A stretch of 32,650 bases of DNA. Source: Candidatus Omnitrophota bacterium (GTDB lineage Bacteria > Omnitrophota > Gorgyraeia > Gygaellales > JAMWCP01). Location of the stretch: NCBI GenBank assembly GCA_023819665.1, contig JAMWCP010000006.1, positions 1 to 32,650 of the forward strand, read 5' to 3'. The notes under the pieces were generated by a model. The model was given only the letters and a program-made list of their open reading frames with translations, did not search any database and was not told where the DNA came from. This document shows, in pieces, positions 1,013-7,559 of this stretch (position 1 is the stretch's first letter; the number at the start of each line of letters is the position of its first letter). The position numbers were made by a program, and so were the translations under genes.

Positions 1013-1669
1013 TTACTCTATCTCAAATGAGATGATCACATTAAAGGTAAGTTGAGGATAGCTCAGTTCTTTAGGAAAGACAGGGAATGGACTGGCGTCC
1101 TTTATACTTTTTAAAGCTACCCCTTTTAGATAAGAATTGGCATTCGTTTTCTCCTCAATTATCCGACAGCTTCCCAGGGTTCCATCAGCTATAATTATAA
1201 AAGTAAGATAGACCTGTCCGGTATCCGAACGATTGTAATTCTGGTAGGCGGATCTTCTTATCTTTTCACGTACGGTCTGATAATAATTTGTGTAAACAGG
1301 ATTGTTTATCTTTTCTAACTCTATGGGTTTTAACTGAACAATCTTCTTTACCAAGATAATATCCGGTTTGGGTATACTGGGTTTAGGAAGAGAACCCATC
1401 ATTCTATTCTTAAATATTTCATCCTTATTTATAAAAGGCGGGGGTTGAATTTTTTTAATCTGGATTCTTTGAGTGGTTTTTAAATTAATTTCTTTTTTCT
1501 CTTCCTCTAATTTAGCATATTGCGTAGTCGCCATCTTAATATAGTTTATTTCTATTTTCTGGTCTTTAGGTTTTTGAGGAAGTTTTAAAACTGAGGGATT
1601 TAAAAAAATTGCTGCATGAACAACCATAGAGATAATTAAAGCATATTTAAAGGTATTATCAGAAATCAT
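1013..1669 (-). CDS. tonB: TonB-like energy-transducing protein
   Basis: The 218-residue protein has the TonB layout: a short cytoplasmic start, one membrane segment at about residues 8-25, a charged and proline-containing periplasmic linker (KPKDQK, IQPPPF, LPKPSIPKPD) and a C-terminal domain from about residue 125. The C-terminal part contains QVYLTFIIIADGTLGSCRII and ends in a beta-strand-like NVIISFEIE, as in TonB C-terminal domains (PF03544 type). It would couple the inner-membrane proton motive force to the receptor encoded just upstream; no exbB or exbD is in the window. It lies 67 bases after the receptor gene and is probably cotranscribed from the same cobalamin riboswitch. The ribosome binding site is weak. 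Confidence 0.8.
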   Translation of the reverse strand: MISDNTFKYALIISMVVHAAIFLNPSVLKLPQKPKDQKIEINYIKMATTQYAKLEEEKKEINLKTTQRIQIKKIQPPPFINKDEIFKNRMMGSLPKPSIPKPDIILVKKIVQLKPIELEKINNPVYTNYYQTVREKIRRSAYQNYNRSDTGQVYLTFIIIADGTLGSCRIIEEKTNANSYLKGVALKSIKDASPFPVFPKELSYPQLTFNVIISFEIE

Positions 1670-1736: not shown

Positions 1737-3605
1737 CTAAAATGTAAGCTTTGCTCCTAGAAATAAAGAAAATTTGGGCGTCTGATATCCTTTTATCTCT
1801 TCATATTTTTCATCCAGTATATTCTCAATACGACTGAATACTTCAAAGTTATCTTTCAGTTTATAATTTATAGCCAAATTTCCTAATAGATAAGGTTTAA
1901 GAAGCTGATTTCCTGAAGTATCTGAATAGCGATGGCCTGTATAGGAAATATCAAAATAAGTGGTTAATTTATCAAAATCTGTCTTTATTTTAAATAATAC
2001 TTTATTGGAGGGACGTCTGGCAAGTTCTGCATGGTTTTCTTTATTTTCTGTATCTAACCAAGTATACCCTAAACTTAAATCTATATTTTTATTTAAGGAG
2101 TAGATTAATTCATTTTCAACTCCTTCGATTCTGGATTTACTTACATTAACATAACCTTGGCCCCAAACAAAATCTATAAGATCTTTAAGTTGACTGTGAA
2201 AATAAACAAGGCTTAATTTTAAATTATCATTGAGTTTATGTTCAAAACCCATTTCATAGGTTTCTGATTTTTCCGGTTTAAGATTACTATTGCCTACAGG
2301 AAATCCCCAAAGTGGAGGAGCATAAAGTTGATACAAGGAAGGTGCTTTAAAACCTGTACCAAAAGATGCCTTTAGTTTTGTATCTTCAGTAAATAGATAA
2401 CTTGCTCCTATTCTAAATGTACTTTTATTTTTAAAGCTAGAATGATCATCCAATCGATAAGATAAAGAAATTAAAATATTCTTATGTGGCTCAATGAGAT
2501 TTTCCAAAAAATAACCCTTGTTATTTGCCGTTTCTTTAGGAAAGTCAGAACCTCCCCAGCTGTCTGTCCTGAAAGAATCACCCTTTTCTCTTAAATAATC
2601 AAAGCCAAAGATTATCTTATAAAAATCAACTGGTCTTAATTCAAATTGATTATCTAACTGATAGGTTGAACCAAGATACCAGTAGTCTGTAGAAGCATCC
2701 TCCCAGCCTTTTCTGTATATTTTAGTGGAGGCTAAAGTTAATCTATAGTCTATATTATCGGTAATAGAGTGTTTTGCCTTAAGACCTAAAATTCCTTCAT
2801 AGTCATAGGCATAGTTATCATCATCATCTACGGGAAGATATGGAGGTGTCCAGCTACTTCCATCGTATTCATATTTGGCATAGATATAATGCCCGATAAG
2901 TTCAAGTTTTGTTCTATCAGAAACTTCATAATCTAAATTCAAAATGGCATTTAAATTATGGTAAGAGTCTCTTTCGTGATTGTTATTTTTTTCTTTGGCT
3001 AAAGAATAACCGGCGATATCTGTTCTGTCTACCCCTAAATTAAAACCAAAATTCCCTTTTCTTCCATTAAATTCCAAAGATTCTTCATAGGTATGGTAAC
3101 TGCCCATTTTCTGTTGATAGATAAATTTGGGCTTTGCCTCTCCTTTTTTACTTAAAAGATTTATTATTCCACCGATAGCATCAGAACCATAAAGAGAACT
3201 CTGTGGACCTTTAGAGACTTCAATTCTGTCAATACCCACTAATTTAAAATGGGCGAAATTATAATATCCACTAGTAAGTATAGGGTCGTATATCTTTATT
3301 CCCTCAAGCATAAAACGGCTATGATAAGAATTGTGTCCTCTTAAAAATATGGAGGTATCTCCACTTAAACCAGATGAAGCTTTCATAATACTTGTAGATT
3401 CAGCCAGTGCCTCTTTTAAAGAATATATTCCTTTATTTTGGGTTTCTTCTACATCAATTTCTTCTACCGTTGCACCTGCTACTTTAGATAAAATTTCTGT
3501 TCTGTAAGGAGTTATCACAATCTTTTCCAGTTCTACTTCCTGTGCTGGTATATATGCTACCCAAATCCAAAAGAAGGCTACTATTATTAATAAAACTTTT
3601 TTCAT
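1737..3605 (-). CDS. btuB: TonB-dependent outer-membrane receptor, BtuB-like
   Basis: Outer-membrane receptor that most likely imports cobalamins or other corrinoids. The 622-residue protein begins with a signal peptide (about residues 1-21), followed by a TonB box, EKIVITPYR at 27-35, a plug domain with the conserved VSKGPQSSLYGSDAIGG, and a long beta-rich barrel ending in the terminal phenylalanine of FLGAKLTF. Length matches BtuB (about 600). The start codon overlaps the stop of the upstream gene as ATGA and is preceded by GAGGGAGG, so translation is probably coupled. Substrate assignment rests on context: a cobalamin riboswitch precedes the operon, and btuFCD lies just upstream. Sequence alone would allow a related siderophore or metal-complex receptor. 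Confidence 0.88.
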   Translation of the reverse strand: MKKVLLIIVAFFWIWVAYIPAQEVELEKIVITPYRTEILSKVAGATVEEIDVEETQNKGIYSLKEALAESTSIMKASSGLSGDTSIFLRGHNSYHSRFMLEGIKIYDPILTSGYYNFAHFKLVGIDRIEVSKGPQSSLYGSDAIGGIINLLSKKGEAKPKFIYQQKMGSYHTYEESLEFNGRKGNFGFNLGVDRTDIAGYSLAKEKNNNHERDSYHNLNAILNLDYEVSDRTKLELIGHYIYAKYEYDGSSWTPPYLPVDDDDNYAYDYEGILGLKAKHSITDNIDYRLTLASTKIYRKGWEDASTDYWYLGSTYQLDNQFELRPVDFYKIIFGFDYLREKGDSFRTDSWGGSDFPKETANNKGYFLENLIEPHKNILISLSYRLDDHSSFKNKSTFRIGASYLFTEDTKLKASFGTGFKAPSLYQLYAPPLWGFPVGNSNLKPEKSETYEMGFEHKLNDNLKLSLVYFHSQLKDLIDFVWGQGYVNVSKSRIEGVENELIYSLNKNIDLSLGYTWLDTENKENHAELARRPSNKVLFKIKTDFDKLTTYFDISYTGHRYSDTSGNQLLKPYLLGNLAINYKLKDNFEVFSRIENILDEKYEEIKGYQTPKFSLFLGAKLTF

Positions 3606-4294
3606 TGAACCTCCCTCCTTTCTTTTTCTTCAACGCTATATTCCTGAATATCTAAGAACCAGAAATTATTAATCAATAGTTTTTCTGTATTTTTTATATT
3701 TATCCTTTTATTAAAGATTGGACCATCATAGACAAAAGTATGATATTCTCCTCTTTCTCCAGAGAGATCCACCCCCTTTATGGTTTGTAAGTCTTTAATG
3801 AAATCTTTGTCGATTGTGCGACCAATCCAATTCTCATCGAGTTTATCTGCCTGTGCACTTGTAACTATTGCCTTAAAACCTAAATTTACAAATTCATTCA
3901 GTAAATTCAAAGTAGGGCTTTCCCATAAAGGAGAGATAACCTTAAATCCCTCTTGATTACAGATATTCTTAACCCAGTCCTGGAGGTCCTGTAGATGTAT
4001 ATCTCCCCGCACAATTTGATTGATATTCATCTCTTTTAATTCTTTTAATGTTTTTCTGAATACTTCCTCATAGTTATCTTTTGTGGTCTCTTTCTGTATC
4101 AGGGAAATATTTAATGCCTCTGCTTGGAGTTTGACTAAATTACTTTTGGTTCCATGAAAGGATACGCGACCATACTCATAAGAGATAAAATTAAAAAGAT
4201 AGACAATTTTATAGCCTTTTTGTATTGCCCTATATAATGAAAGGCAACTGTCTTTTCCGCTACTCCAGGAACAGGCAGCAATTCTATTTTTCAT
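3602..4294 (-). CDS. Dph6-like PP-loop ATPase (COG2102) in a cobalamin regulon
   Basis: A 230-residue member of the Dph6/MJ0570 PP-loop family (PF01902 type). The PP-loop is CSWSSGKDS near the N-terminus and the family signature GEYHTFVYDGPIF is near residue 185. In eukaryotes and archaea Dph6 amidates diphthine on EF2; bacteria lack diphthamide, so the substrate here must be different. It is the first gene behind a cobalamin riboswitch and overlaps the receptor gene by four bases (ATGA), which argues for a job in corrinoid handling. I chose the ATG at 4292-4294; the longer TTG-started frame to 4306 runs into the terminator U-tract. No strong Shine-Dalgarno is visible. An ATP-dependent amidation or amide-modifying step on a corrinoid or its ligand is a guess. 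Confidence 0.85.
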   Translation of the reverse strand: MKNRIAACSWSSGKDSCLSLYRAIQKGYKIVYLFNFISYEYGRVSFHGTKSNLVKLQAEALNISLIQKETTKDNYEEVFRKTLKELKEMNINQIVRGDIHLQDLQDWVKNICNQEGFKVISPLWESPTLNLLNEFVNLGFKAIVTSAQADKLDENWIGRTIDKDFIKDLQTIKGVDLSGERGEYHTFVYDGPIFNKRINIKNTEKLLINNFWFLDIQEYSVEEKERREVQ

Positions 4295-4304
4295 TAAATC
4301 TACC

Positions 4305-4329
4305 AAAAAACCCGACCTTCTTGGTCGGG
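4305..4329 (-). terminator. Intrinsic terminator of the compact cobalamin riboswitch
   Basis: On the minus strand CCCGACC (4323-4329) pairs with GGTCGGG (4311-4317) around a five-base loop and is followed directly by six T (4305-4310). This is a textbook Rho-independent terminator. It sits between the riboswitch core and the first start codon (4294), so it is the likely expression platform for transcriptional control. GGTCG at 4371-4375 could pair with the CGACC of its 5' arm as an antiterminator. Confidence 0.88.
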
Positions 4330-4371
4330 CTAAATCTTATAGATCTTTTTCCCTTCCCCAGAAGGTACTCG

Positions 4372-4475
4372 ACCTTAAATAGATGATCGACCGGGCTCAT
4401 CCGCTATATATGCGGATATTACCGTTGCCGGGCAGCCCTGGGAATCACACCCAGAGTTCCTTCATCTATTCGGTT
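4372..4475 (-). promoter_or_regulatory. Cobalamin riboswitch, compact and divergent
   Basis: The minus strand contains the cobalamin-riboswitch core: GGGTGTGATTCCCAG hairpin followed by GGCTGCCCGGCAACGGTAAT, close to the consensus GCTGTCCCGCAACGGTAA. A short hairpin ATCCGC/GCGGAT follows, then GAGCCCGG. A perfect nine-base-pair closing helix, AATAGATGA (4462-4470) with TCATCTATT (4378-4386), encloses the core. The B12 box is hard to recognise and the long P6-side extensions are absent, so it resembles compact cobalamin classes rather than the canonical AdoCbl form. It precedes the Dph6-like, receptor and tonB genes. Ligand preference cannot be read from sequence alone. Confidence 0.82.
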
Positions 4476-4486
4476 TGTTTTTAAAA

Positions 4487-4532: not shown

Positions 4533-4691
4533 TTAAGACATCTTTAAAATCCTACTTATATGCCTTATGCTTAAATTAAATTTTTTGCTCAGATTTTTTA
4601 AAGAAGTCCCTCTTTTTCTTAATCCTATAATTTTTTGGTTGCGTTTTTTTAAAAAATCTTTAAAGATAGAGTTTGTTTTACTCTTTGACAT
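4533..4691 (-). CDS. Small helix-turn-helix protein, 52 aa, in the btu operon
   Basis: An ORF of 52 codons runs from ATG at 4689-4691 to TAA at 4533-4535. AAGGAT lies about five bases before the ATG, overlapping the end of btuD, whose stop is nine bases upstream; it therefore looks like the fourth gene of btuFCD. The product is very basic. Its second half, RNQKIIGLRKRGTSLKNLSK continuing into FNLSIRHISRILK, reads as a helix-turn-helix of the resolvase/Mor/sigma-r4 type: helix, turn around GTS, helix, then a recognition helix with SIRHISRILK. A DNA-binding role is likely; the target is unknown. It is too short to be a full transcription factor unless it dimerises. The clean Shine-Dalgarno and spacing make chance unlikely. 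Confidence 0.7.
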   Translation of the reverse strand: MSKSKTNSIFKDFLKKRNQKIIGLRKRGTSLKNLSKKFNLSIRHISRILKMS

Positions 4692-4700
4692 TCGGTATCC

Positions 4701-5480
4701 TTAAGAAAATAAAATTATAAATGGTTTTCCCGTCAAGGGATTCTCTTTTACTAAAACAGGGGTCTTGTATACTGTTTCTAAGTTGTTATAAGTTAAGACC
4801 TCAAAAACAGAGCCCTGTTTTACAATTCTTCCTTCATTAAGAAGAATAAGCCTTGTGCAGTAATGACTGGCTAAATTTAAATCGTGCAATACCGTTAAAA
4901 CAGTTAAGCCTTCTGTTTGGTTTAATCTTTTTATTAAATCCATAATGTGGATCTGATGTTTAATATCTAAATGCGCAGTGGGTTCGTCTAAAATCAAAAG
5001 TTTGGGTTCCTGTGCTAAAGCACGCGCAATAAGCACCCTCTGGCGTTCTCCACTACTTAAGGTCTCAAAGAATTTATTTCTCAATTCTAATGTATCGGTC
5101 AAAAGAAGGGCGTTTTCTACAACAGAACGATCTTTTTTTGTTTCTGTCTGCAGTCTTTTTAAATGAGGTATCCTTCCCATCAACACTATCTCCCAGACAC
5201 TGTAAGAGAAATAGATCTTTGTCTCCTGGGCTACAAAAGCCACATTCTGAGAGAACTCTCTTAAGCTTACCCTACTTAAATCTCTATTCTGCCAGAACAC
5301 ATGTCCTTTGGTAGGAGCTAAAACCTTACTTATTAACCTTAAAAGCGTGGATTTTCCTGAGGCATTCGGTCCAATTATGCCTAAAAAATCATTTTTATTT
5401 ACTTCAAAGGAGATACCTTTTATTACCTCATTATCTTTATATCCACCAAAAATACTCTCTACTTTTAGTAGATTTTCCAT
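4701..5480 (-). CDS. btuD: ABC transporter ATPase, BtuD/FecE type (vitamin B12 uptake)
   Basis: ATPase subunit of a cobalamin importer. Visible motifs in the 259-residue protein are Walker A GPNASGKSTLL (about residues 37-47), the Q-loop in FVAQET, the signature LSSGERQRVLIARAL, Walker B LLILDEPTAHLD and the switch histidine in TVLHDLN. Note LSSGE rather than LSGGQ, a common variant in this family. It starts one base after btuC and is preceded by AAAGGT within the end of btuC. Together with BtuC and BtuF it forms a complete type II importer, and the whole set follows a canonical cobalamin riboswitch. Iron-siderophore transport uses the same family, but the riboswitch favours corrinoids. Confidence 0.9.
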   Translation of the reverse strand: MENLLKVESIFGGYKDNEVIKGISFEVNKNDFLGIIGPNASGKSTLLRLISKVLAPTKGHVFWQNRDLSRVSLREFSQNVAFVAQETKIYFSYSVWEIVLMGRIPHLKRLQTETKKDRSVVENALLLTDTLELRNKFFETLSSGERQRVLIARALAQEPKLLILDEPTAHLDIKHQIHIMDLIKRLNQTEGLTVLTVLHDLNLASHYCTRLILLNEGRIVKQGSVFEVLTYNNLETVYKTPVLVKENPLTGKPFIILFS

Positions 5481-5481
5481 A

Positions 5482-6447
5482 TCAGGTTACCTTTTGTCTT
5501 TTCTTTAAAAGGAATATAAAAACAGGTGTTCCTAAGAAAGCAGTGATTACTCCTATCGGAATCTCTAAAGGCGGAATTAAAGTACGTGCCAGCATATCCG
5601 AAAAGACCAAAAATACTGCTCCTGATACCGCACTTAAAGGAATCAATCTTTTATGGTTTGGTCCAAAACTAAATCTTATAATATGCGGAATAATCAGACC
5701 AACAAAGCCAATAATTCCACTTATACAGACAATAGATGAGGTAATTAGAGAAACCAATATAAATAGTATCTTTTTTACTTTTTCAACCTCTATTCCTAAG
5801 TGGGTTGCTTCTTCCTCTCCTATACTTATAGCATCTAGATCTCTATAAAATACAAATATAATGAAGATTGAGGGTATAACGATAAAGCTAGACAAGACTA
5901 TAAGTTTTAGATTATAGTTACTTAGACTTCCCCACAACCACCAGAATGCTTCATGTATTACTTTATCCGCATAGATAGATACGATAAATATAATTATTCC
6001 TGACAAAACTATGGATACAATTACTCCTGCTAGTATCAGCGAATACACAGGAAGATGACCATTTTCTTTAGCAATCTGATAGACAAGAATTATGCTAAAG
6101 ATTGCCCCTAGAAAGGCAATTAAGGGTAGAGTTAATCCGGTGCCCCCTAAAACCATTCCTAAAATTGCACCTAAGCTTGCACCACTTGATGTCCCTAAAA
6201 GATAGGGCTCTGCCAGTGGATTTTTAAGGATTGCCTGCAGAACTACTCCAGAAGTCGCCAATCCTGCACCGCTAATTATTCCTAACAGGATTCGCATAGT
6301 TCTTAAATAAAGAATAATCCTGTTTTCTCTTAAAAAGAGTTCTGATAAATTTAATTTTACTGAACCATAATTTAAGCTTAAAAATATAGAGAGAGTGAAT
6401 AATAAAACCAAAAGAAAGATCTTTTTATTAAAATTAGAATCTTTCAT
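5482..6447 (-). CDS. btuC: ABC transporter permease, BtuC/FecCD family
   Basis: Integral-membrane subunit of the B12 importer, 321 residues with about nine or ten hydrophobic segments. FecCD/BtuC signatures include RIILYLRTMRILLGIISGAG near residue 42, GVVLQAILKNPLAEPYLLG, the coupling region after FYRDLDAISIGEEEATHLGI and GLIIPHIIRFSFGPNHKRLI near residue 250. The C-terminus is basic (KKRQK), on the cytoplasmic side. The ATG overlaps the btuF stop as ATGA, showing translational coupling, and btuD follows one base after the stop. Length is normal for the family (about 320-330). Confidence 0.92.
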   Translation of the reverse strand: MKDSNFNKKIFLLVLLFTLSIFLSLNYGSVKLNLSELFLRENRIILYLRTMRILLGIISGAGLATSGVVLQAILKNPLAEPYLLGTSSGASLGAILGMVLGGTGLTLPLIAFLGAIFSIILVYQIAKENGHLPVYSLILAGVIVSIVLSGIIIFIVSIYADKVIHEAFWWLWGSLSNYNLKLIVLSSFIVIPSIFIIFVFYRDLDAISIGEEEATHLGIEVEKVKKILFILVSLITSSIVCISGIIGFVGLIIPHIIRFSFGPNHKRLIPLSAVSGAVFLVFSDMLARTLIPPLEIPIGVITAFLGTPVFIFLLKKRQKVT

Positions 6448-7277
6448 TCTTCAGGATATAATCTTTTATGTATTTTAAAAATGGCCTCGGTTAATCTTGG
6501 TCCCGGTCGTAAAAGAATATCGGGTTCTATATCCGTATAGATACGATTGTCTCTAGTGGCTTTTAAAGTATTCCAAATAAAATTTTTTTTAAAATCAATT
6601 TTATTTTTACCCATATGCGTGGCAATAATACAATCAGGATCTTCTTTAATCAACCGTTCCAAACTAAAATAACTGTAAGGCCTTTTTAATCTATGCGCAA
6701 TATTTATCCCTCCTGCCAGATAAATTAACTCATCAATAAACGAACCGTAACCTGCAGTCATCAGAGGTTCATCCCAAAGGATTAAAAATACTTTAGGTCT
6801 TTTATCGAAAGGGATATTTTTTGTTTTCTCAACAATTACATTTATATCTTTTCTCATATTATTAATCAGAGTTTCTGCTTTTTTTGTTCTATTGGTAAGA
6901 AATCCTATTTCTCTGATGGATAGAAATAATTCTTCTACATTTTTAGGATTACTTATGTAAACATTTAATTTTAATTGCCCTAATTGATTAATCACTTCTT
7001 TCTGCTCCATATCTGTACAAAAAACAATATCGGGTTTTAAAGAAATAATCTTTTCTACATCGGGTTTGCTGAACGAACCTACTTTGGGTCTATTGGATGT
7101 TTTTTTAGGATAATTACAGAAAGAACTTACTCCCACAATTTCTTCATCCAATCCTAAGGCGAACAGGATTTCGGTAATAGAAGGGGTAAGCGATACGATC
7201 CTTATTTTTTCTCCGGCATAAATACTTTTAGATAACCAGACGACAGTAAATAGAATGACTATTAGTTTTTTTGCCAT
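6444..7277 (-). CDS. btuF: Periplasmic cobalamin-binding protein BtuF
   Basis: Substrate-binding protein of the B12 ABC importer (periplasmic-binding family PF01497). The 277-residue form starting at 7277 opens with a signal peptide MAKKLIVILFTVVW followed by an alanine near residue 21; the mature part begins RIVSLTPSITEILFALGL, the standard start of BtuF/FhuD-like domains. Further landmarks are PDVEKIISLKPDIVF, LWDEPLMTAGYGSFIDELI and GPRLTEAIFKIHKRL. A longer ATG-started frame to 7319 encodes the riboswitch terminator stem and must be leader RNA, so 7277 is preferred. Only six bases separate the terminator U-tract from this ATG and no Shine-Dalgarno is obvious. Confidence 0.92.
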   Translation of the reverse strand: MAKKLIVILFTVVWLSKSIYAGEKIRIVSLTPSITEILFALGLDEEIVGVSSFCNYPKKTSNRPKVGSFSKPDVEKIISLKPDIVFCTDMEQKEVINQLGQLKLNVYISNPKNVEELFLSIREIGFLTNRTKKAETLINNMRKDINVIVEKTKNIPFDKRPKVFLILWDEPLMTAGYGSFIDELIYLAGGINIAHRLKRPYSYFSLERLIKEDPDCIIATHMGKNKIDFKKNFIWNTLKATRDNRIYTDIEPDILLRPGPRLTEAIFKIHKRLYPEE

Positions 7278-7283
7278 ATAAAT

Positions 7284-7315
7284 AAAAAACCCCGAAGCAA
7301 TATTGCTTCGGGGTT
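7284..7315 (-). terminator. Intrinsic terminator of the btuF cobalamin riboswitch
   Basis: Positions 7288-7315 form a perfect 28-base palindrome (AACCCCGAAGCAAT and its complement), giving a strong GC-rich stem with a T-run on its minus-strand 3' side (7284-7289). It lies between the riboswitch aptamer and the btuF ATG. GGGT just upstream (about 7317-7320) could pair with ACCC of the 5' arm, a possible antiterminator nucleus. Confidence 0.9.
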
Positions 7316-7351
7316 GCACCCTAGTTTTTCTCTGGCCCGTCCGCGCGAGTC

Positions 7352-7524
7352 TCTTTAATACAGGCAGGTCTTCTGACTTGGAGATCTTCCTACTTGCTCC
7401 TGCCTTCCCGTTCCAGATTTTGGAGCAGTGGCTTTTAACTTAGAGCTTTCGTCCCTCCCTACAGCAGCGGGACTGCGGTCGCTTCTACGACACTTCCCTT
7501 TTAACCTTAAAAGGACCTGTATTG
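7352..7524 (-). promoter_or_regulatory. Cobalamin riboswitch, canonical (upstream of btuFCD)
   Basis: On the minus strand a perfect B12 box, AAGTCAGAAGACCTGCC (7363-7379), is followed by CTGTATT, which pairs with AATACAG (7517-7523) to close the aptamer. Other consensus elements are AAAAGGGAAG, GCAGTCCCGCTGCTGTA and GCCACTG. The aptamer spans about 167 bases, with the extended peripheral helices of the AdoCbl-type class. A terminator lies between it and btuF, so high cobalamin should stop transcription of the importer. The predicted transcription start coincides with the base of the closing helix. Confidence 0.95.
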
Positions 7525-7530
7525 TTAAAG

Positions 7531-7559
7531 ATTTTATGATAACCTATTTAACCTGTCAA
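7531..7559 (-). promoter_or_regulatory. Promoter of the btuFCD operon
   Basis: TTGACA (7554-7559) and TAAAAT (7531-7536) on the minus strand are spaced 17 bases apart, eleven of twelve consensus positions. The predicted start near 7524 is the first base of the riboswitch closing helix. The -35 hexamer begins two bases after the stop codon of cobO, so the new unit begins with no spare intergenic DNA. Confidence 0.87.

Follow-up and report, generated by a model that had tools for sequence, protein, structure and literature searches.

The 32,650-nucleotide stretch that we analysed (hereafter the window), contig JAMWCP010000006.1 of the Candidatus Omnitrophota assembly GCA_023819665.1, carries on its minus strand a group of genes and RNA elements for vitamin B12 uptake, among them a gene of the DUF71/COG2102 family:

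1013–1669, minus strand: TonB-like protein, downstream of btuB (profile matches)
1737–3605, minus strand: BtuB-like TonB-dependent receptor, its start overlapping the DUF71 stop by 4 nt
3602–4294, minus strand: DUF71/COG2102 (PF01902) PP-loop ATP pyrophosphatase of the B12 type, with SSGKDS loop and GERGEYHT motif
4304–4330, minus strand: terminator-like hairpin (cccgacc/ggtcggg) and T-run directly before the DUF71 start (sequence and fold)
4339–4486, minus strand: AdoCbl-type cobalamin riboswitch (RF01482), below the gathering score, structure conserved
4533–4691, minus strand: helix-turn-helix-like mini-ORF of 52 aa between btuD and the riboswitch, a candidate part of the unit
4701–5480, minus strand: BtuD-like ABC ATPase (profile matches)
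5482–6447, minus strand: BtuC-like permease (FecCD; profile matches)
6444–7319, minus strand: BtuF-like substrate-binding protein (profile matches)
7346–7535, minus strand: cobalamin riboswitch (RF00174) before btuF, 98 bits
7561–8064, minus strand: CobA/BtuR corrinoid adenosyltransferase (profile matches)

The DUF71 open reading frame encodes 230 residues from an ATG start, with an alternative in-frame TTG start at 4306, and matches PF01902 over residues 7–220 (E = 3.5e-55; 187 bits against a cut-off of 23.2). Its stop codon and the start codon of btuB overlap in the sequence ATGA. The BtuB-like protein matches TIGR01779 with E = 6.5e-79, but its 266 bits lie below the equivalog cut-off of 600. 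Upstream of DUF71, btuF-btuC-btuD (4701–7319) follow the separate riboswitch at 7346–7535. Because btuFCD and cobA stand under this stronger riboswitch of their own, DUF71 is the first gene of a second unit, DUF71-btuB, and not of the whole B12 uptake operon. The original prediction had made it the first gene of such an operon; its place directly behind a cobalamin riboswitch and its ATGA coupling to btuB hold, but the extent of the operon has to be narrowed. The 52-aa mini-ORF is conserved in two related genomes, G001 (L070:6416–6571) and G034 (L072:4477–4620), and matches helix-turn-helix families only weakly (HTH_35, E = 0.003).

The riboswitch at 4339–4486 matches RF01482 with E = 1.4e-6 and 42.7 bits, below the curated gathering cut-off of 50, and is therefore missed by a default Rfam scan. 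Its region folds with a z-score of −4.3, its structure is kept in G001 and G034, where alignment of the three sequences shows both partners altered in 7 of the 48 consensus pairs, and in G010, G058 and G059 canonical RF00174 elements (97, 91 and 88 bits, respectively) lie directly before DUF71. On these three grounds the element is real, and conservation with paired changes together with the canonical elements in sister loci rules out a chance match. The terminator hairpin is conserved in G001 and G034 as well, and encloses the sequence AGAAGG 9 nt before the TTG.

The DUF71 protein has the PP-loop S-x-G-K-D-S in the form SSGKDS. Its AF2 model (pLDDT 93) shows a HUP fold with a C-terminal domain and, among PDB entries, is most similar to the Pyrococcus proteins PH1257 and PF0828, the latter with ATP bound (entries 2d13 and 3rk1; TM 0.82–0.85). 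The ATP loop and the GE-x-GE-Y/F-H motif near the C-terminus are both preserved, and E180, G182, E183 and H185 are invariant in the alignment. With Dph6 (TIGR03679; PF0828 and PH1257 structures) the protein shares the fold, the ATP loop and about 30% identity over its whole length, and Dph6_archaeal (TIGR03679) is its best NCBIfam match (E = 6.8e-46). However, that match scores 156.3 bits against an equivalog cut-off of 197.3, His185 stands where Dph6 has its proposed catalytic Glu188 (as in 27 of 27 aligned homologues), the substrate loop is another one, and the tree places the protein outside the Dph6 clade with support of 100/100. The score, the motif and the tree rule out a true Dph6, in agreement with the original prediction, which called the gene only Dph6-like. 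To our knowledge, it is also established that bacteria lack diphthamide, and a role in making it here can be practically dismissed. Many bacterial DUF71 genes are nevertheless labelled 'diphthine--ammonia ligase' in databases.

The window protein has close relatives in five genomes (G001, G010, G034, G058 and G059), with which its DUF71 forms one clade (support 100/99). Position 96 is Arg in all six proteins of this clade and Phe in the 21 others of the alignment; by our own reading of the alignment, R96 would sit in the counterpart of the Dph6 substrate loop. Among the three closest DUF71s of the clade dN/dS is about 0.12–0.14, synonymous change far exceeding replacement, so the gene is under purifying selection; these values, the intact motifs and the lack of stops rule out a relic.

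The link of DUF71 to B12 is not new, having been predicted since 2012, when de Crecy-Lagard et al. defined a 'DUF71-B12' subgroup of COG2102 in which Glu188 is replaced by His (PMC3541065). In that work 75 of 102 members adjoined B12 transport (btu) genes and 18 of 102 adjoined cbiB, the subgroup was anticorrelated with CbiZ, and an Ado-pseudo-B12 amidohydrolase or another salvage role was proposed (PMC3541065). In a 2016 paper the function of the group is still given as unknown, no reaction has been assigned to this branch since 2012, and the literature that we searched contained no biochemical or genetic experiment on a B12-type DUF71. The window protein is a member of the subgroup: it has the motif E-x-G-E-F/Y-H (in place of E-G-G-E-x-E) as GERGEYHT, has btuFCD neighbours, comes from a genome without CbiZ and is not a Dph6. 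It differs in that its clade lacks CbiB, CobU, CobT and CobS, in heading a riboswitch-btuB unit, and in R96. The B12 association proposed for the gene in the original prediction is thus sound, with btuB, btuFCD and two riboswitches adjoining, and is general for the subgroup. As to bacterial COG2102 genes at large, the link is a property of the subgroup, because many His-type DUF71 genes elsewhere in bacteria have no B12 neighbours.

We surveyed 117 genomes of the same order by profile searches. PF01902 was found in 58 of them, CbiB in 23, CobS in 58, CobU over cut-off in 59, CobT in 60 and BtuC in 63; CbiZ was found in none of the 117. Six genomes with PF01902 were set aside, either as having only low scorers of another clade (G017, G023 and G099 by the tree, G080 and G091 by score) or for a weak fragment match (G112), leaving 52 carriers of the Omnitrophota-type DUF71. 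DUF71 follows B12 import in these relatives, which is new here: 49 genomes have both DUF71 and BtuC, 3 only DUF71, 14 only BtuC and 51 neither (odds ratio 60), and the 3 carriers without BtuC are all at incomplete contigs. For CobS the corresponding counts are 46, 6, 12 and 53. Within CobS-positive genomes DUF71 still tracks BtuC (44, 2, 5 and 7, in the same order), and seven of them have neither BtuC nor DUF71. In the four of these seven genomes whose loci were inspected, cbiB, cobD and CbiP occur together with CbpB, partly accompanied by cbiA/cbiC-type genes. The Fisher tests treat related genomes as independent, and their p-values therefore exaggerate the association; the direction is clear.

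Importers with CobS carry DUF71 more often (44 of 49) than importers without it (5 of 14), which points to a role near cobamide assembly for most of the family. Because 9 of the 14 importers without CobS also lack DUF71, the protein is not required for using imported cobamide. Nor is it simply part of a cobU-cobT-cobS assembly operon, given that such an operon is missing from six carriers and that DUF71 is missing from seven genomes with assembly genes but no BtuC.

Three operon arrangements recur. In arrangement (a), btuF-C-D-cobC-cobU-cobT-cobS-DUF71-btuB stand together without CbiB, a gene set found in 32 genomes. In arrangement (b), the operons contain cobD, CbiP, CbiB and often CbpB, followed by DUF71 and btuFCD; CbiB, CobS, CobU, CobT and DUF71 occur together in 14 genomes. 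In several CbiB-type operons (L050, L052, L078) the gene immediately before DUF71, which it overlaps, encodes a radical SAM/SPASM protein of the TIGR04163 family (CbpB, 'peptide-modifying'). Arrangement (c) is transport-only, btuFCD-riboswitch-DUF71-btuB, and comprises the window genome (G000), G001, G010, G034, G059 and, with the DUF71-btuB part only on a short contig, G058.

Profile searches found none of CbiB, CobS, CobU, CobT and CbiZ in the six genomes of arrangement (c), the window assembly being 94.8% complete and single-genome absences resting on assemblies of 89–98% completeness. The window genome needs AdoCbl, because it encodes eight proteins with a B12-binding domain, seven of them with a radical SAM motif, as well as cobA and NrdJ, a ribonucleotide reductase of class II (736 bits). 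Cobyric acid, the product of CbiZ, returns to cofactor only through CbiB and then CobU, CobT and CobS, and a cobamide cut to cobyric acid could therefore not be rebuilt in this clade. With assembly genes missing and AdoCbl needed, the substrate of the window protein is most likely a complete imported corrinoid or another item of the B12 economy.

Our preferred reading, to which we give a probability of about one in three, is that the window DUF71 uses ATP to turn a side-chain carboxylate of an imported corrinoid into an amide. This is near to the hypothesis of the original prediction, an amide-forming or amide-exchanging step on imported corrinoids, which gains indirect support from the missing assembly genes and from the operon neighbours described below. 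Family members of known chemistry adenylate a carboxylate or carbonyl to form an amide, thioamide or similar bond, and Dph6 is described as an ATP-dependent amidating enzyme (PMC3585130). A Dph6-derived N-type (PP-loop) ATP pyrophosphatase would here handle imported corrinoids, not EF-2. The AdoCbl riboswitch and the terminator would shut off the DUF71 transcript, whose translation is coupled to that of btuB, so that the protein would be made when B12 is short. The enzyme would adenylate the carboxylate with ATP as in Dph6, and attack by an amine would yield a corrin side-chain amide. In this organism, where the nucleotide loop cannot be rebuilt, the substrate would be a cobamide taken up from outside and complete except for a side-chain amide, either lost or never present. 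The product could then pass through CobA to AdoCbl-dependent enzymes, namely NrdJ and, where they use it, the B12-binding radical SAM proteins. An amide-forming step on a corrin side chain is compatible with each of the three arrangements; because the catalytic Glu of Dph6 is His here, the reaction may differ.

The 2012 proposal makes DUF71 an initiator of remodelling, opening imported (pseudo-)cobamides in the manner of CbiZ for replacement of the lower ligand. The published clustering and the anticorrelation with CbiZ speak for it, as does the presence of DUF71 in 44 of 49 importers with CobS. G093, the sole genome with CbiB, CobS and BtuC but without DUF71, has a CbiR-like xylose-isomerase-fold gene (PF01261, L135:3064–3867) that overlaps cobU, which also suits remodelling. 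Against these points, the co-occurrence with CbiB that entered the functional guess does not hold in the window genome or in 38 of the 52 carriers overall, although CbiB is needed to use cobyric acid; the window clade lacks CobU, CobT and CobS as well; 8 of 11 Bacteroidota genomes with a His-type DUF71 lack CobS; and the established chemistry of PP-loop ATPases is to make such bonds, not to hydrolyse them. CbiZ (PF01955) and CbiR resemble DUF71 in lying near B12 transport or salvage genes, but they are unrelated families whose products need CbiB (CbiZ) or CobU and CobS (CbiR), absent from the window genome. With the downstream enzymes absent, a CbiZ-type role is disfavoured for the window clade, and we consider remodelling improbable. 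It stays alive for the assembly-linked clades, because most carriers have CobS and because of the CbiR-like gene beside cobU in G093; in the window clade the function may have become a different one. Less probable again is a substitute for CbiB that joins (amino)propanol to cobyric acid at the expense of ATP and feeds the resulting cobinamide to CobU, CobT and CobS. Such chemistry suits a carboxylate-adenylating enzyme, 32 genomes have DUF71, CobU, CobT and CobS without CbiB, and in six of those the gene for CbiP, the producer of cobyric acid, shares 4 nt with DUF71. However, CbiB and DUF71 coexist in 14 genomes, the inspected CbiB-less loci did not show CobD, which usually supplies aminopropanol phosphate, and the activity would be useless in the window genome, where CobS is absent.

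Almost as probable as our preferred reading is that the window clade now serves a different ATP-dependent step of the B12 economy, such as delivery or activation of imported cobamide, or works on another metabolite made when B12 is short. The clade is distinct, with its diagnostic R96 in what appears to be the substrate loop, its gene is under purifying selection in importers that lack assembly genes, and homologues in Chryseobacterium lie downstream of icmF, which encodes an AdoCbl-dependent acyl-CoA mutase. Yet no specific reaction can be named for such a step, and the icmF synteny comes from a single genus. The setting of the window clade contradicts the published remodelling idea for that clade and favours an amide-forming step, without proving it. 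For one clade the distribution eliminates the remodelling proposal and confines the choice of substrate to a complete corrinoid that the cell has imported.

Enzymes that form amides, or are likely to, share the operon neighbourhood of DUF71. CbiP/CobQ, cobyric acid synthase, forms amides on corrinoid carboxylates; it occupies the same operon slot in some relatives, but has an unrelated ATPase and glutaminase architecture. In six CbiB-less genomes (G029, G064, G067, G068, G094 and G101) CbiP lies between cobS and DUF71, overlaps DUF71 by 4 nt and scores 525–539 bits, above its own cut-off. Two genomes without CobS, CbiB and DUF71 have a full-length CbiP among their transport genes: in G038 the order is riboswitch-btuF-C-D-cobC-cbiP-btuB, with CbiP (L126:8063–9733) in the DUF71 slot before btuB, and in G104 it follows btuD (L127:2470–3978). 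These replacement cases are suggestive only, because CbiP may be what a deletion left of a larger operon. A narrower version of the amide-forming reading, which we regard as rather unlikely, is that the R96-type clade acts on intact imported cobamides to repair or complete their side-chain amides, and that CbiP has been recruited to this task where DUF71 is missing, as in G038. If true, cobamide auxotrophs would have a B12 salvage step that repairs or completes the corrinoid; as far as we searched the literature, no such corrinoid 'amide repair' has been described before.

Likewise only suggestive is an asparagine-synthetase-like protein in the cob operon of G039, which has no DUF71. Asparagine-synthetase-like PP-loop proteins also occur in cob operons without CbiP (L084:9417–10355, L134:5661–6716, and at L069 and L088), where they are a possible amide-forming substitute; in the one scanned, that of L084, no glutaminase domain was matched.

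Outside Omnitrophota our sample was small, a contig scan with one query sequence that returned 13 loci. One of the eight Bacteroidota genomes in which CobS was absent is a complete chromosome. The icmF arrangement holds for most of the Chryseobacterium loci that we fetched (L092–L099, L102), and in most of these no B12 transport genes lie near DUF71. Annotated plasmid-borne homologues are mostly without B12 neighbours.

Within the order, G017 and G023, in which the BtuC profile found no match, have a DUF71 of a different clade directly after cobA, followed by a DUF6580 membrane protein and btuB (L086, L087); a riboswitch lies at L086:8213–8390.
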